Positions 12,379-22,189 of a DNA stretch of 45,375 nt are shown here, in pieces; position 1 is the stretch's first letter, and each line of letters starts with the position of its first letter. Origin of the DNA: a virus; the IMG/VR virus record IMGVR_UViG_3300025127_000072, positions 1 through 45,375 of that record. The stretch is one strand, 5' to 3'. The notes beneath the pieces were generated by a model. The model had not been told where the DNA came from. It worked only from the letters and a program-made list of their open reading frames with translations, and searched no databases. The position numbers and the translations under genes were made by a program.

Positions 12379-14265
12379 ATGGCTCAAGTAACAGGAGGTG
12401 GTGGTAAGGCTGCTGTAATGCCTAACTTCGACCCAAAGCAAACTACATTAGAGGAAACAATTAACGAGTATGCAAAAGCATCTCGTGCTACAGGCAAAAA
12501 GCTTGAGGATTTTGAAAAAAGGCTTATTAACAATAAAGTCCTTAAAACCTATTTAAAAAATCCAGTTGTTGAATTGTTTGATGGTCATTGGGGAAATGAA
12601 GATAACCCCCTTGTCAAATTACTTGATTCTGTTGGTGAAGGAAGTAGAGGACAGTTTTACAGTGCTTTCAAAAGTATAGAAGAAAACGTATTCAGGCAAG
12701 TTAACAGATTAAGATTTAACGAGGACTACAAAAAATTAACAGAGGGAGTTGCTCGACCTGCAAAGGGGGGTAAATATACATCAAAATTTCTTTACAATCC
12801 TGAAAAAATTGGTGACTTTCATAAAGGATTAGTAGAGTTTGTAAAAAACAATCCTGATTCAAAACCTGTAGCAAATGCTTTGCTATTTCAACTCTATACA
12901 GGTTTTAGACCAAATGCTGCAGGAGGTATAACTCCGTTTGATATATACGAACCTGAATCAAGACATAATATACACAGTCTATTTATAGGTGGTAACAGGG
13001 TCGGTGCAAAAGGCTCTCCTATAAATGTTCCTTTGACAAGAAGAGCTATGGCAATTCTTAACAGTCAAAAGTTATATAATGAAAATAAATTTGATGGTGA
13101 AAAATTTATATTTCAAAAAAAGGTAAAAGGTAAACTTGAACCTATTGATGATACAGATATTACAGGTTTGCTTAAAAAATTAAAAAAAGCAAATCTCTTA
13201 CCTCCTAGACTTAAAGTAGATGTATCAGGGGATGTGGTCAAAGGAACAACAAATATTACTGCCTACGATTTACGAAGAATACACGCTACCACATTATCAA
13301 GTTTAGGTGTAAGTTTAGAAAAGGCTGCTCTTCTAACAGGCAGAGTGGTTGGTGGTGGTGCAGAGCAAGCAAGATACGTTGGTCTTGCTCCGGGGTCTGC
13401 TAATCCTCAAGGGGCTGCTAAAGACGCTAACATGTTAACGGACTATATGTATCAAGAGTATAGTAGAACTCTTCCGGGGGGTATGCAAGCTGCAGAAAAA
13501 GAAAGTAAATTTTTAGCTCGTGATAGAGATGTATTTAGTCCAAATCAACCTGTAGAATTTGTAAAGCCTAGCACAGATGTTTATAAAGGTCCTACTTACG
13601 AAAAGGGTGTCAATGTTATATCTACGGTTGATACTGATTTTATAGAGGGTGATTACAAAGTACTTGATGATAAACCACCTGCTAGTATTGCTGAAACAAG
13701 CAAAGAAACTCAAGACTGGTTTAGAAGTATGAACATAGATGATGGCAGTCTTGCACCTCAGATTGAAGATAAGACAATAAAAACTAAGAAACTAAAATCT
13801 GTAGATCCAACTGCAATATTATTAGGAGGTGCAGCAGGGTCAGAGATATTAGATGATACTGGCGAGCTAGTTACTGAAGAAATTGCACAATCGACTATAG
13901 CTCAAACAACGTCAAAGATTGCACCAAAGTTAGCACAGACTGCACTCGGAAGAGCATTACCAGTAGCAGGTGCAGGAATGATTTTTCCAACTTCTCCTAC
14001 AAACGTAGGTGAGATAGAGGGATTTGCAAGAAAAGATATTGATAAACGTTTTGGTGGCATAGATCAAATGGATACATCTCAGGAAAAACAAATATTTAAA
14101 GATGATCCACGACTACAAGGAACAACAGCGATGTACGATCCATCAGAGTTACCAAGACGAGACGCTGATGACCCACTAAGTGATGAAGCGTACAGAAAAA
14201 GATTTCTAGAGGAATCTAGAACAAAAGCAGGCTCACAATTACGTGGGTTCGCACAACCTCGTTAA
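12379..14265 (+). CDS. Tyrosine-recombinase-like protein with long C-terminal extension
   Basis: A 628-residue protein whose middle (about 130-345) follows the tyrosine recombinase/integrase fold. LYTGFRPNA holds R177 (the first Arg); GAKGSPINVPLTRRA holds K211 in the beta-hairpin; TAYDLRRIHATTL holds R299 (the second Arg), with Tyr296 in place of the usual His; LLTGR followed by EQARY gives a possible nucleophile Y333. After this, some 280 residues have no match I know, with two mild hydrophobic runs (AILLGGAAG; ALPVAGAGMIF). It lies between terminase and portal, an unusual place for an integrase. It may be an active recombinase, an inactive relative recruited to the virion, or a DNA-binding head protein. 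Codon use looks like that of its neighbours. Confidence 0.7.
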   Translation: MAQVTGGGGKAAVMPNFDPKQTTLEETINEYAKASRATGKKLEDFEKRLINNKVLKTYLKNPVVELFDGHWGNEDNPLVKLLDSVGEGSRGQFYSAFKSIEENVFRQVNRLRFNEDYKKLTEGVARPAKGGKYTSKFLYNPEKIGDFHKGLVEFVKNNPDSKPVANALLFQLYTGFRPNAAGGITPFDIYEPESRHNIHSLFIGGNRVGAKGSPINVPLTRRAMAILNSQKLYNENKFDGEKFIFQKKVKGKLEPIDDTDITGLLKKLKKANLLPPRLKVDVSGDVVKGTTNITAYDLRRIHATTLSSLGVSLEKAALLTGRVVGGGAEQARYVGLAPGSANPQGAAKDANMLTDYMYQEYSRTLPGGMQAAEKESKFLARDRDVFSPNQPVEFVKPSTDVYKGPTYEKGVNVISTVDTDFIEGDYKVLDDKPPASIAETSKETQDWFRSMNIDDGSLAPQIEDKTIKTKKLKSVDPTAILLGGAAGSEILDDTGELVTEEIAQSTIAQTTSKIAPKLAQTALGRALPVAGAGMIFPTSPTNVGEIEGFARKDIDKRFGGIDQMDTSQEKQIFKDDPRLQGTTAMYDPSELPRRDADDPLSDEAYRKRFLEESRTKAGSQLRGFAQPR

Positions 14266-16661: not shown

Positions 16662-18999
16662 CTTCTACACTAACTTTGAAACTTTAACTCCTGATGAATA
16701 TCAGAACAGTATTGTTAATTTTTACAATCAAACACTAGGTAGATCAGGGATTCAAACGACAAAGCCAAAAGAAGAAGAGGATGATAAAGACACAGGGTAT
16801 GTAGCACCAACTATAATCCCCGATGACGCTCAGACTGGTATTCCAAATATACTTGATTTTGATTATGACATAGACAACGTTGTTAATTTTGAAAATTTAC
16901 CATTGTCTTATGATGAGCATTTAAGAGATTTGGGTGTAGATGATAAATCAGATTTAACTGCATTTGGTATGACTATAGAAGCACCATCTAAAGAACAATT
17001 TCAAAAATACAGTGCAGCAAAGGGGATGAGTGCAGTGTTTGGATTGACAGGTTTACCTATTGAAATAGGAGCATCAATGCTTGCAGGTAAAAGTCAAAAA
17101 AATATGTTTGGTGTTGAAGAATTTAAACCCACTGGTATCATGGGTGCTATTCAAGATTTTAGTGAGTCTGCTAGATTGGACAGTTACAATAAAAATAAAT
17201 CTAAATACACTGAAATAAAAAATGCTTTTGCTATGGGGCCAGAAGAATTTAGTACCTCACCAACCGAAGATTTTAATAATTACATGAGAGGTAAAGACTA
17301 CGGATTTAGTGTAAACTCTAAAAATGCAGGCAGTGCCATATACAGAGATCATGGTAGTAGAATATATAACGGAGCAGGTATGATTGGTATAGATCAAGAA
17401 ACTGCCAAACGAATGGAAGCATTAAAAAGAGGGTATGAAACATCAGATTATGATCCAACTAATCCTGCTAAATCAAAATCATTAGTTGGTGCAGGGTACG
17501 ATGAGCGTGGCTATCATCACACCATAAACGGTATTGCTGCGATGGGTAGAGAAAAAGACGCAATCGAATTAGGTAACATGTATGGACTCACTCTTGGTGA
17601 AGTCAAAAATGTACTTGGTGATGTAAGAAGTAGACGATCTACATTTGGTAGAACTATCGAAGGCAAAACTCTTTCACAAATGTTGTCTGAAGCTAGAGAC
17701 AGAAAAGAACAACGACAACAGCGACAACAACAGCAACAGCAACAACAGCAACAACAACAACAACAAGATGATAATGATGAAACTTTTGACAGAGGAGATC
17801 AGGGAACAACAGTTGTTGGTGGTACTGTGTACGATGATCCTGTTGGCATAGGTTATGATATCGGTGAAGATCCTCCTGAGGAAGATCAGGGGGGTACTGA
17901 TTATGGAGATACTGGAACTCCAGAAACATCTGGTTTATTTAAAACTGGTGGTCGTGTTGGTATGCAAGAAGGTGGTAACACAACCGAAGTTGTGCAACCT
18001 GCAGGTTTTATAGCACCTGATCCTAATGCTACAGACCAACAAGAAATAGCTGACGACAAACCTATGGATGCACGGCAGGGTGATTTTATTATCAACGCAC
18101 CTGCTGCAGAAGAAGCAGGAAAACAAGACATTCAACGCATGATAAACACAGCTATTACAAATTTACAAGAAAAAGGGGTTGACGTACGCTTTGGAGATCC
18201 TAAAATAAATATAGCAGACAAAGTTAAATTACTTGTATCTCGTAACGAAGTTTACATACCTGCCATTATAGCAAAAGAAATAGGTTACGATAGACTTAGA
18301 AAAATAAACAATCGTGGTAAACGAGAGGTGCAACGGAGACAAGAAGAATCCCAACAAGATGAAAAACCCCAAGCAAGAGGTTTCATTCAAAAAAAAAAAG
18401 GTGACGTAGTAGAAGATGGTGGATTTGTAACAGCACCAGTAACACGAGATGCAGCTACTTTTACAGCTTTTAAAAATTTTTTAAAAAAAAGAAAACCACT
18501 AAGAGCAGACATAGAAAATTTTATAGACACTATACCGGGAGATAAAGCTAGATTAGGACTGTTAGCAGGAGTTGAAGCTCCATTAGAAACCTCTACCCTA
18601 CCAGAACTTGAAGCTATAGTACAAACTATAGTTAACAGGGTAAATGACAAAACGTACGAGTATAGAAACATAAACACAATAAAAGAAATCATGAAACAAC
18701 GTTCTACTAGAGGAACTGGATCAAAAATGTTTATGTATGATGGACTAGAAAGAAAACATATTAGACCAAGAATACAAGAAATTCTTAAAAACCCTAAAGT
18801 ATTTCAAGCAGGATTAGATGCTGCAGAAAATGTTTTAACAAAGGGGGGTGGTGAACCAGATTACGAGATGGAAATGTTACCACCAGATGTCTTTCAATAT
18901 TCTGTAGCAGGTAAACCGTCTGCAGTAAATGACAAAAACCCTAAATTAAAATTTTATAAAAAAATTGGAAAACATAATTTTTATAGAAGAGTACCATAA
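16654..18999 (+). CDS. Large virion protein with polyQ tract and SleB-like C-terminus
   Basis: A 781-residue protein of head/tail type. Residues 1-340 are soluble, with a hydrophobic helix near 135-145. A Gln run follows, with 14 in a row at 358-371 encoded by mixed CAA/CAG. Next is an acidic, Gly-rich linker and a GGRVGMQEGG element, common in marine phage virion proteins. The end (about 630-745) resembles a SleB-type cell wall hydrolase: LLAGVEAP with E641, IVQTIVNRVND, and later AAENVLTKGG with PDYE. Such a domain could cut peptidoglycan during DNA entry. Hydrolase role is inferred from pattern, not a strong match. Confidence 0.75.
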   Translation: MLNFYTNFETLTPDEYQNSIVNFYNQTLGRSGIQTTKPKEEEDDKDTGYVAPTIIPDDAQTGIPNILDFDYDIDNVVNFENLPLSYDEHLRDLGVDDKSDLTAFGMTIEAPSKEQFQKYSAAKGMSAVFGLTGLPIEIGASMLAGKSQKNMFGVEEFKPTGIMGAIQDFSESARLDSYNKNKSKYTEIKNAFAMGPEEFSTSPTEDFNNYMRGKDYGFSVNSKNAGSAIYRDHGSRIYNGAGMIGIDQETAKRMEALKRGYETSDYDPTNPAKSKSLVGAGYDERGYHHTINGIAAMGREKDAIELGNMYGLTLGEVKNVLGDVRSRRSTFGRTIEGKTLSQMLSEARDRKEQRQQRQQQQQQQQQQQQQQDDNDETFDRGDQGTTVVGGTVYDDPVGIGYDIGEDPPEEDQGGTDYGDTGTPETSGLFKTGGRVGMQEGGNTTEVVQPAGFIAPDPNATDQQEIADDKPMDARQGDFIINAPAAEEAGKQDIQRMINTAITNLQEKGVDVRFGDPKINIADKVKLLVSRNEVYIPAIIAKEIGYDRLRKINNRGKREVQRRQEESQQDEKPQARGFIQKKKGDVVEDGGFVTAPVTRDAATFTAFKNFLKKRKPLRADIENFIDTIPGDKARLGLLAGVEAPLETSTLPELEAIVQTIVNRVNDKTYEYRNINTIKEIMKQRSTRGTGSKMFMYDGLERKHIRPRIQEILKNPKVFQAGLDAAENVLTKGGGEPDYEMEMLPPDVFQYSVAGKPSAVNDKNPKLKFYKKIGKHNFYRRVP
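17708..17766 (+). repeat. CAA/CAG repeat encoding polyQ
   Basis: A near-unbroken CAA/CAG triplet run; the uninterrupted Gln part is 17725-17766 (14 codons). Mixed codons suggest that the Gln run, not just the DNA repeat, is kept. Length may vary between strains by slippage. Confidence 0.9.
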
Positions 19000-19007
19000 A
19001 AGAATTA

Positions 19008-19070
19008 GTCAGCTACCCACACTAGTGGCCCTGACAAACCGAAGCAGCTACCCACAGCCAGTGGCACTGC
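19008..19070 (+). ncRNA. Two tandem RNA hairpins before the scaffold gene
   Basis: Two copies of the same stem-loop. Unit 1 (19008-19035): outer stem GTCAG/CTGAC, inner stem CCAC/GTGG, loop ACTA. Unit 2 (19044-19070): outer stem GCAG/CTGC, inner stem CCAC/GTGG, loop AGCCA. Both keep CTAC on the 5' side of the internal loop. The base pair next to CAG/CTG changes from T-A to G-C, a compensating change. They fill the 89-base gap before the scaffold start and have no T run, so they are not simple terminators; they may stabilise or control the scaffold/coat message. Confidence 0.6.
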
Positions 19071-19088
19071 AATATGAGGTAAAAAACT

Positions 19089-19997
19089 ATGGCAACACAA
19101 GTAAAGGGCGTAAGAGCCAACAAACCAAACGATTCATTTGGAGTAACTAACAACAAAAATCTTTATCGTGGTAAATATCGTGACGATGTATACAAAGATG
19201 AAGAAGAAACCACAGAAGAAACTCAAGACCCCACACAAGAAGTGGCTACTCAAGAGAAACCAAAACCTTCTGATACCAGTTTTGTAGAAGCAAAACAACA
19301 AGAAGAACACGATTACAAAAAGCGTTATGATGATCTTAAAAAACATTATGACACGAAACTCAATGAGTTTAAAGATGAACGTGAACAACTTGCAAGTGAG
19401 CTAGAAGCTGTTAAGAAAAGGGTGTATGAAATGCCCAGAGGTGCGAAAGCACCAAAGACAATGGAAGAACTAGAGGAGTTCAAAGAACGATATCCTGATG
19501 TTTTTGAAGTTGTTGAAACAGTTTCAGGACTACAAACTGAAACACAAGTTGCAAAACTCCGTGAAGAGATTGCGTCAGTAAAACAGCGAGAGAAAGATTT
19601 AGAAAAAGAAAAAGCTTTTGAAGAACTTCTCAGACTACATCCTGACTTTCATGATCTTAAAACAGATGAAGAGTTTTTAGGGTGGCTCGATGATCAACCT
19701 AAACAAATTAGTGATGGTATATATAAAAATAACACTGACGCTAAATGGGCAGGTAAAATCATATCCCTCTACAAAGCAGAGATGGGAATCTCTAAAAAGA
19801 AACCTACTAAGTCAAAAGAATCTGATGCCGCAGCATCTGTAGCAAGACAACAACCTAGAGAGGTTGCAACAAAAGATTCTACTAAAAAGATTTGGAAAGG
19901 TTCTGACATCGCCAGACTTAAACCGTGGGAGTTTGAAAAGGTGGAAGCCGAGATCGACTTAGCACGGCAAGAAGGGCGAATTGATATGAACAGCTAA
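19089..19997 (+). CDS. Capsid scaffolding protein
   Basis: A 302-residue helical, highly charged protein directly before the coat gene. It has an acidic Glu/Thr/Gln region (35-75), a long coiled coil (about 75-185, KRYDDLKKHYDTKLNEF and later KQREKDLEKEKA) and a C-terminal helix SDIARLKPWEFEKVEAEI that likely binds coat subunits. Scaffolds guide coat assembly and then leave the shell. The start ATG is placed after GAGGT with the two RNA hairpins just upstream. Assignment comes from make-up and position and is typical. Confidence 0.9.
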   Translation: MATQVKGVRANKPNDSFGVTNNKNLYRGKYRDDVYKDEEETTEETQDPTQEVATQEKPKPSDTSFVEAKQQEEHDYKKRYDDLKKHYDTKLNEFKDEREQLASELEAVKKRVYEMPRGAKAPKTMEELEEFKERYPDVFEVVETVSGLQTETQVAKLREEIASVKQREKDLEKEKAFEELLRLHPDFHDLKTDEEFLGWLDDQPKQISDGIYKNNTDAKWAGKIISLYKAEMGISKKKPTKSKESDAAASVARQQPREVATKDSTKKIWKGSDIARLKPWEFEKVEAEIDLARQEGRIDMNS

Positions 19998-20020
19998 AAC
20001 CTCAAAAAAGGAGAGAGAAA

Positions 20021-20998
20021 ATGGCTTTCGGAACTGCTGCAGGATATGGAAACTTACCGTCAGGTAATTTCGCTCCTCAGATATTTAGCCAAAAAGTTCT
20101 CAAGTTCTTCAGACGTGCTTCGGTTGCAGAAGATATTACGAATACTGATTACACAGGAGAGATTGAAAACTTTGGCGACACTGTGAATATTATCAAAGAA
20201 CCAACAATAACTGTATCCAGTTATACAAGAGGTTCTGTGGTAAATACTCAAAACTTGGCTGACGATCAAATTACATTGACCGTTGACCAAGCAAACGCAT
20301 TTGCATTTAAAATCGATGACATCGAAGAGAGACACTCTCATGTCAACTTTGAAGCATTAGCAACTTCTTCAGGTGCTTTTTCTTTGAAGAGAAAATACGA
20401 TGCAAACGTGTTACAAGCTTTATCAGACGGTGCAGGTCTTGCAGGTGCTGATGATGCAAGTTTATCAGGTGGTCTAACAACTACTAACTCAGCTTTAGGT
20501 ACAGCATCTGCTCCTATTAACGTAGAGACAGACGATGCAGGTATCAACCTCATGCTATTAATGGCAAGAGTGCTTGATGACCAGTCTGTGCCAGAAGAGA
20601 ATAGATGGTTTGTTGCACCTCCGATTTTCTACGAGAAGATGTTTCAAGCAGGTAACAAGATTGCAGAAGTACAGGTAACTGGCGATGGATCTTCTAACCT
20701 AAGAAACGGACTTGCAACTCCGGGTACACTTGCAGGCTTTACATGCTACAAGTCTACAGCTTTAAACAGCACAAATGGAACTGATCAGGTAACAATGTCA
20801 GGTTTAGCAACTGATGCTTCTGAAAACGTTATCTTAGCAGGTCACATTTCTGCTGCAGCTACAGCGTCTCACATCGCAAAGACCGAAGTGGTACGTTCAA
20901 CTGAATCATTCTCTGACGTTGTTAGAGGACTACATGTTTTTGGTAGAAAAATTCTTAGACCAGAAGCCTTAGTCCGTGGCGTTATAGATTTTGCTTAA
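20021..20998 (+). CDS. Major capsid protein
   Basis: A 325-residue coat protein, starting MAFGTAAGYGNLPSGNFAPQ behind AAAAAAGGAGAG, the strongest ribosome-binding site in the window. It has the mixed alpha/beta make-up of HK97-fold coats of the podovirus/P22 type: QIFSQKVLKFFRRASVAEDI (N-arm and helix), the E-loop-like GDTVNIIKEPTITVSSYT, DQANAFAFKIDDIEERHSHV, and the end VVRGLHVFGRKILRPEALV. It sits between scaffold and decoration genes. Low Cys content and many Ala/Thr/Gly fit a shell protein. Confidence 0.95.
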   Translation: MAFGTAAGYGNLPSGNFAPQIFSQKVLKFFRRASVAEDITNTDYTGEIENFGDTVNIIKEPTITVSSYTRGSVVNTQNLADDQITLTVDQANAFAFKIDDIEERHSHVNFEALATSSGAFSLKRKYDANVLQALSDGAGLAGADDASLSGGLTTTNSALGTASAPINVETDDAGINLMLLMARVLDDQSVPEENRWFVAPPIFYEKMFQAGNKIAEVQVTGDGSSNLRNGLATPGTLAGFTCYKSTALNSTNGTDQVTMSGLATDASENVILAGHISAAATASHIAKTEVVRSTESFSDVVRGLHVFGRKILRPEALVRGVIDFA

Positions 20999-21559: not shown

Positions 21560-22189
21560 ATGTTATTACAAATACTAACCAAAGAAGATGTGGACAAGTG
21601 TTTAAAACTTTGTCCAAAAATGGAAGATGGCAATAAGACACAGCCATTAGAAAGTGTCAAGAAGAATACAGAGTCAGTAAAAGTTGCAGATGAGATAAGA
21701 AATCTTGTAGCTTCACGAATTGTAAATAATCCATTTGTTGACTCAGTAATATGTCCTAACCGTGTATCAGTAAACTTTTACAATAACTACACAGAGGGTG
21801 ATTATTACAACAAGCACATAGATAGTTTTAAGGCAGAACCTAAAATGAATCATGTGTATTTTGATTACGGTTTTACAGTCTGTTTATCAGACGACTACGA
21901 AGGTGGAGAGTTTGTACTTGACAATGAAATAGGTGAAATACCTTTTAAGTTAAAAGCAGGTCAAGTTTTATTCTTTCCAATTATATATCCCCACAGTGTT
22001 AACAAAGTAACAAAGGGATCACGAAAAGCATTGATAGGTTGGTTATCTACCAATGTTAGTTACGAACAAAGTTTTGTGTTGCGTAACTTGTATGAAGTAA
22101 ACGCTCATGCAATAAACAACAAACAACACAATCTAGCTGTTAAGTCTACACTTGTACAAAACTATTTAAAGAAACAGTGGGGTAGATAA
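21560..22189 (+). CDS. 2-oxoglutarate/Fe(II)-dependent oxygenase (prolyl-hydroxylase-like)
   Basis: A 209-residue enzyme of the P4H/PiuC type. The iron site is complete: H86 and D88 in NKHIDSF, H145 in IIYPHSV, and R155 in GSRKALIGW for 2-oxoglutarate. Between them lies YGFTVCLSDDYEGGEFVLDN, the usual core strands. It would hydroxylate a protein or small molecule using oxygen and 2-oxoglutarate. It lies among virion genes, between the decoration protein and a conserved unknown, so a virion protein could be the target, or the enzyme may act on host metabolism. Enzyme class is firm; substrate unknown. Confidence 0.9.
   Translation: MLLQILTKEDVDKCLKLCPKMEDGNKTQPLESVKKNTESVKVADEIRNLVASRIVNNPFVDSVICPNRVSVNFYNNYTEGDYYNKHIDSFKAEPKMNHVYFDYGFTVCLSDDYEGGEFVLDNEIGEIPFKLKAGQVLFFPIIYPHSVNKVTKGSRKALIGWLSTNVSYEQSFVLRNLYEVNAHAINNKQHNLAVKSTLVQNYLKKQWGR

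Follow-up and report, generated by a model that had tools for sequence, protein, structure and literature searches.

Paired internal-loop hairpins before the scaffold-position gene of HMO-2011-type phages and pelagiphage relatives: a candidate RNA operator

Control of scaffold dosage in tailed phages has long been established by P22 genetics, including a post-transcriptional limitation of the scaffolding protein by itself, and Wyckoff and Casjens are said to have described the autoregulation of the P22 scaffolding protein gene 8 in 1985. To our knowledge, no RNA target of such dosage control has been defined, in P22 or elsewhere. In the MS2-type operator, a hairpin at the start of a structural phage gene is read by a capsid protein; MS2 is, however, an RNA phage, and its single bulged hairpin differs in sequence and loop from the hairpins described here. 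Literature searches on RNA motifs of phage capsid genes, on HMO-2011 intergenic RNA, and on scaffold autoregulation found no description of the present element, which may correspond to an unnamed candidate among the 224 RNA candidates that a 2017 survey reportedly contains. With regard to shape, the C-loop RNA 3D motif is an asymmetric internal loop with a C-rich long strand, as in the hairpins described here, and serves as a lead only. It is named, without a sequence, in excerpts of two papers (PMC3854523 and PMC12510878).

The T4/RB69 gene 32 operator is, according to an excerpt of PMC535899, a structured RNA located 5′ of the ribosome binding site through which the gene's own product represses translation. 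The present element likewise lies immediately upstream of its ribosome binding site, but the excerpt describes a pseudoknot and UUAAA repeats instead of two internal-loop hairpins. Structured RNAs of marine phages that are tied to metabolic or photosynthesis genes, such as manA, wcaG, and PhotoRC-II, are present in Rfam (PMC2864571, excerpt), whereas the element of the present locus, likewise from a marine phage, has no match there. In the searched text of the HMO-2011-type genome paper (PMC9038755), the words hairpin, terminator, promoter, and intergenic do not occur.

The hairpin pair and its genomic setting

The window is the whole stretch of viral DNA that was analysed (45,375 nucleotides, IMG/VR record IMGVR_UViG_3300025127_000072). 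Its genes are arranged in the order terminase, integrase-like gene, portal, a 781-aa protein, scaffold-position gene, and coat gene. The integrase domain (phrog_1, PF00589) belongs to a 628-aa protein (12379-14265) between terminase and portal, which is an unusual integrase location. In addition, a 209-aa protein in the head gene cluster (21560-22189) matches 2OG-Fe(II) oxygenase (phrog_61) and DNA endonuclease families.

The product of the scaffold-position gene is probably a scaffold protein, judging from its place before the coat gene and its helical make-up. Its predicted structure consists of long helices and a disordered N-terminus (mean pLDDT 70.3), and a fold comparison of this model (best E 2.4 or more) found no solved relative showing RNA binding, so that RNA binding by the protein is neither supported nor excluded. 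If this role is correct, the arrangement would resemble that of P22 gene 8, a scaffold gene whose neighbour is likewise a coat gene of the P22 type. The coat protein of HMO-2011 carries the annotation P22 coat, and that of the window matches phrog_267. P22 differs in that only 13 nt separate its portal and scaffold genes, and in having no motif.

The gap before the scaffold-position gene extends from a stop at 18999 to an ATG at 19089 and is nearly filled by two stem-loops of the same design (Table 1), as the first-pass annotation had proposed. What it had described as a CTAC bulge is a 4 × 2 internal loop, in which CUAC faces CC or CA. The change of a closing T-A to G-C with pairing kept, which it had also pointed out, is present at the fourth pair of stem A. 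A covariance model of the hairpin (R1) found two sites in the window, hairpins 1 and 2, and none elsewhere, and the chance expectation of the full motif with three mismatches permitted was 0.00. Folded as a single sequence, the leader had only a slight advantage over shuffled versions (z −1.75; 9 of 200 scored as well), and the case for structure comes from relatives.

Table 1. Features of the window at and downstream of the two hairpins.
Feature	Positions	Strand	Content	Evidence or remark
Hairpin 1	19008-19035	+		sequence, covariation, model R1 match E 2.4e-8 in the window
Hairpin 1, stem A	19008-19012 / 19031-19035	+	GTCAG / CTGAC	sequence
Hairpin 1, internal loop, 5′ (long) strand	19013-19016	+	CTAC	nearly invariant among relatives
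Hairpin 1, stem B	19017-19020 / 19025-19028	+	CCAC / GTGG	apical loop ACTA
Hairpin 1, internal loop, 3′ (short) strand	19029-19030	+	CC	
Linker	19036-19043	+	AAACCGAA, with conserved CCG	between hairpins 1 and 2
Hairpin 2	19044-19070	+		sequence, covariation, R1 match 19043-19071 with E 2.9e-6 (this hairpin is one of the model's training sequences)
Hairpin 2, stem A	19044-19047 / 19067-19070	+	GCAG / CTGC	sequence
Hairpin 2, internal loop, 5′ (long) strand	19048-19051	+	CTAC	
Hairpin 2, stem B	19052-19055 / 19061-19064	+	CCAC / GTGG	apical loop AGCCA
Hairpin 2, internal loop, 3′ (short) strand	19065-19066	+	CA	
Shine-Dalgarno-like site	19076-19080	+	GAGGT	begins 5 nt past hairpin 2
Scaffold-position gene	19089-19997	+	302 aa, phrog_13678 (PHROGs: function unknown)	candidate controlled gene
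Major capsid protein gene	20021-20998	+	phrog_267	23 nt past the scaffold gene

Covariation and the near-fixed internal loop

Relatives were collected with the scaffold protein of the window (best 80 of 326 confirmed relatives kept), with its coat protein (best 80 of 599), with the scaffold proteins of HTVC033P, HTVC103P, and HMO-2011 (best 80 each of 596, 119, and 588, respectively), and with a hairpin pattern scan (at least 119 stretches), and the leaders of named phages were inspected individually. From 146 unique leaders in a first set, 49 non-redundant ones were obtained, and 47 were aligned after the omission of two divergent named phages (alignment A1). These leaders were not chosen by pairing, although some of the loci came from the hairpin pattern scan.

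Conserved pairing in relatives, on which the first-pass annotation had let its case depend, was found in A1: 99.9% of 799 cells are paired, and 11 of the 17 stem pairs have changed on both sides. The covariation score of 0.389 exceeds both that of shuffles (0.190, sd 0.009) and the highest value reached by slid structures (0.080); in further pair types, the alignment has no more than shuffles do (18 vs. 19.4). RNAalifold recovered both hairpins unaided, and in 11 of the 20 pairs that it predicts both partners have changed. Alignment A2 comprises 44 diverse hairpins across groups, in which 8 of 9 pairs have changed on both sides (score 0.819 vs. 0.226); as a scan for pairing supplied the hairpins of A2 and of model R1 (44 of its 45 were kept, one dropped), the percentage paired is inflated and it is the variety of pairs that is informative.

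The pairing scan demands a stem A of at least three pairs, a G-C pair, an MYAC/MM loop, and a stem B of at least three pairs. Among 299 unique leaders, it matched 51/51 of the HTVC033P, 34/34 of the HTVC103P, and 44/57 of the HMO-2011 group, whose loci were fetched by protein only, as well as 8/17 other named leaders and 140/140 of the near group, a count that is partly circular because the hairpin pattern served to retrieve some of the loci of this group. With 20 dinucleotide shuffles per leader, 0.3-0.6% of the shuffled sequences match. All 13 misses of the HMO-2011 group are long hairpins (described below) with a different inner geometry. The internal loop of the matches is nearly always CTAC/CC or CTAC/CA, with CCAC in some; variants are ATAC/AC in CRP-738 and CHOED and ACAC/CC in MQM1. 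The pair adjoining the loop is G-C in both hairpins of all 47 leaders of A1, and also in 44/44 hairpins of A2, where the selecting scan demanded it.

At the gathering score, Rfam 15 gave no matches in the window and 10 related loci, and a permissive search gave none in 18950-19150 of the window and hits in two relatives with scores far below gathering. Together with the covariation, the near-fixed loop, and a position at the Shine-Dalgarno site in every group, this upholds the earlier claim of an unrecognised RNA element before the scaffold gene; the hairpins are real, and the first interpretation is largely supported.

Several further interactions were considered and set aside. The loop of hairpin 2 (GCCA) could pair with UGGC of the start AUGGC, and in HTVC033P a pairing of UCCAU with AUGGA looked compensatory; such pairing does not hold up in the HTVC103P group, where the loop is AGTTAA and the starts include ATGAGT and ATGACA, nor in the HMO-2011 group, and is thus not general to the mechanism. 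An upstream alternative in HTVC033P, TTATGG/CCATAA, is not kept in all relatives, and in a kink-turn seen by eye at ACCGA/GAGGU the second position varies.

Distribution and position before scaffold and coat genes

The distance from the last hairpin to the Shine-Dalgarno site is 3-7 nt in the near group, 3-8 nt in the HTVC033P set (in which two leaders lack such a site), −3 to 2 nt in the HTVC103P set, and 0-3 nt in the HMO-2011 set, and 8-20 nt separate the last hairpin from the ATG across groups. Stem A of the last hairpin reaches into the Shine-Dalgarno site in the HTVC103P group, and in the group of the window the site itself is left uncovered. The conserved structure therefore overlaps or abuts the ribosome binding site, which was taken as one mark of a protein-binding translational operator. 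Initiating 30S subunits occupy a span around the start codon, and given the spacing to the ATG, a protein on the last hairpin would sit within this span or at its edge. In the window, RNAalifold predicts that ACC of the linker (19038-19040) pairs with GGU of the Shine-Dalgarno site (19078-19080). Many HTVC033P relatives also have an ACC a few nt 5′ of their GGU. Such a pairing might constitute a cis lock.

By eye, the motif is held by 19 of 21 named leaders; those of two phages with related scaffold or coat genes, Slicky01 and TM3_14A, are without it. It reaches phages of Pelagibacter, Roseobacter, Puniceispirillum, Rhizobium, Aeromonas, and Vibrio, and lies on the sense strand ahead of the start codon in the leaders examined. 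The Rhizobium phages N3_19 and phiM6 have a weak stem A and may adopt an alternative register. The motif is usually paired, either as tandem hairpins, as in most leaders of the window's group and the HTVC103P set, or as one long hairpin with two facing loops (outer CUAC/CC, inner CC/CUAC), as in HMO-2011, CRP-1, CRP-3, CRP-212, CRP-345, the Manatee Spring phage, and, less clearly, the Rhizobium phages; the long form was assigned by eye and single-sequence RNAfold, and several sequences favour a shifted outer register. Some leaders, namely those of HTVC033P and its relatives, CRP-235, CRP-738, MQM1, and CHOED, have one clear site. A second upstream site was scored in 17 of 51 HTVC033P-set leaders and apparently extends into the preceding gene.

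A search of 22 named phage genomes with R1 found 16 with a match at E ≤ 1, and 12 of the 13 matches at E ≤ 0.01 precede the scaffold gene. One of the twelve, in CRP-345, overlaps the annotated scaffold start. In this phage (locus L271, 1814-1900), the annotated ATG lies inside the hairpin, and a later ATG past an AAGGA Shine-Dalgarno site looks likelier. The thirteenth match (TGGAG-ATAC-CCAT..ATGG-CA-CTCCA) is found in HTVC115P (MN698247.1, 24554-24584, − strand; L533, 2555-2585); it lies 15 nt before the large gene gp40, overlaps the end of gp41, and is followed by a Shine-Dalgarno site and an ATG. Relatives of the gp40 gene, sought in order to test this extra motif, were not found. P22 and two actinophages are without the motif. 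P22 gave no R1 match, neither genome-wide at E ≤ 1 nor at E ≤ 5 when its head-gene region was searched, and AGM10 and phiSASD1 gave none in their head-gene regions. In 18 virus records, 20 of the 22 matches at E ≤ 0.01 fall at the scaffold-leader location expected from locus coordinates; extra matches in records G009 and G015 have no Shine-Dalgarno site and start nearby and are probably due to chance. Bacterial bins, whose titles may differ from the true hosts, yielded nine scaffold loci in a protein search; R1 matched before the gene in six of these loci and the long form was seen by eye in two, while L544 has neither. L538 and L540 have second R1 matches within the gene region.

A motif related to the scaffold-leader hairpins also precedes the coat gene in the HMO-2011/Rhizobium branch. 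The scaffold-coat gap of the HMO-2011 set is 217-249 nt long in 66 of 70 loci, and this leader contains a promoter-like TTGACA/TATAAC and a structured stretch, GGA-UUAC-CUG..CAG-CC-UC (21 sequences). The coat leader of CRP-212 reads UUAGU-CCAC-CAGUGA..UCACUG-CC-ACUGA, and that of phiM6 AAAGA-CUAC-CCAUA..UAUGG-CC-UCUUU with a facing AUAC/CC loop inside. A scan requiring at least 11 stem pairs matched 4 of 11 named coat leaders vs. 0.4% of shuffles, although one of the four, CRP-738, has a different sequence pattern and may be a chance match. Before the coat gene of the window, the R1 search found no motif, and there is no leader of the HMO-2011 type.

HMO-2011-type phages also appear to have a second, larger structured RNA in this place (L274, 2755-2995; L272, 2738-3000; L453-L532). 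It comprises a leader of roughly 150-330 nt with the promoter-like TTGACA/TATAAC and a conserved multi-helix structure closed by GCAAAC/GUUUGC, and it has no Rfam match.

A candidate operator and rival explanations

The hairpins are probably an unrecognised switch that sets the amount of the scaffold-position protein. We infer, with moderate confidence, that they form a cis-acting operator to which a phage capsid-assembly protein binds, lowering scaffold synthesis. Each hairpin would represent one recognition module, a 4 × 2 loop with MYAC facing MM (usually CUAC against CC or CA), flanked by two stems in which the sequence is largely unconstrained so long as pairing holds. A trans-acting capsid-assembly protein, foremost free scaffold, would occupy both modules and block the 30S subunit, so that less scaffold would be made once free scaffold accumulates. 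The block of the 30S subunit is proposed because the last hairpin ends at, or a few bases from, the Shine-Dalgarno site. A near-fixed loop between free stems points to recognition by another molecule, the presence of two sites in a leader would fit a dimer or a pair of protomers, the location by the Shine-Dalgarno site suggests control of initiation, and a motif found ahead of both scaffold and coat genes suggests a role in capsid dosage. The earlier proposal that the element might govern the dosage of scaffold and coat, or bind a phage protein, is strengthened because a related motif precedes the coat gene in one branch. By analogy with P22, free scaffold protein would be the likeliest ligand. 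Against the operator, P22, in which the scaffold reportedly regulates itself, is without the motif, and so are Slicky01 and TM3_14A; nor does the hairpin cover the Shine-Dalgarno site in the group of the window. The site before an unrelated large gene in HTVC115P fits a general regulator better than strict scaffold autoregulation. Whether the hairpins represent a previously undescribed class of two-site phage RNAs, with MYAC/MM loops read by a dimeric capsid-assembly protein before scaffold genes and, within one branch, also before coat genes, is a more doubtful matter, and we advance it tentatively.

Processing or stabilisation of mRNA is a common role of hairpins between the genes of phage late operons, and a cleavage site or 5′ stabiliser separating the portal-region transcript from the abundant scaffold-coat transcript would fit both the location between low- and high-copy genes and the free letters of the stems. 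We consider this unlikely, as a near-fixed 4 × 2 loop and a fixed G-C across hosts exceed the needs of a generic stem and the tight coupling to the Shine-Dalgarno site would be superfluous. Alternatively, the ligand of the operator could come from the host, perhaps a ribosomal protein or another RNA-binding protein, such that capsid synthesis would track the state of the host; the hairpins sit at the Shine-Dalgarno site, and their two sites imply a trans factor here as well. The same loop in phages of alpha- and gammaproteobacteria favours a phage-encoded partner, which makes a host protein a somewhat less likely candidate again, though a universal one is possible.

A purely cis-acting structure, in which the linker ACC and extensions of stem A pair with the Shine-Dalgarno site and thereby lower initiation or insulate it from upstream translation, would agree with the RNAalifold pairing and with the overlap in the HTVC103P group. 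It would leave the fixed internal loop and the paired modules unexplained, and the ACC:GGU pairing has no covariation support, its CC/GG being invariant and its only other changes two U-U breaks; we regard this explanation as improbable. The presence of two foldable copies of a repeat between genes might also suggest an intrinsic transcription terminator or a site acting at the DNA level. The first reading of the locus had already dismissed a terminator, and rightly so: the T run is absent, and the three terminator-like sites found are all on the − strand and outside the gap, the + strand of 18700-20100 having none. A site read in double-stranded DNA would have fixed letters, whereas those of the stems vary while pairing is kept, and in examined leaders the motif keeps to the sense strand before the start codon, so that either role is highly improbable.

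The element occurs in hundreds of virus contigs of HMO-2011-type phages and pelagiphage relatives, and is a defined RNA small enough for work with reporters and purified protein. Rfam would gain a family through it, and it is of help in correcting gene starts, such as the annotated scaffold start of CRP-345. If the more tentative reading as a new class of two-site RNA is true, the module would set the scaffold:coat ratio in abundant ocean phages, and might anchor assembly at the mRNA.
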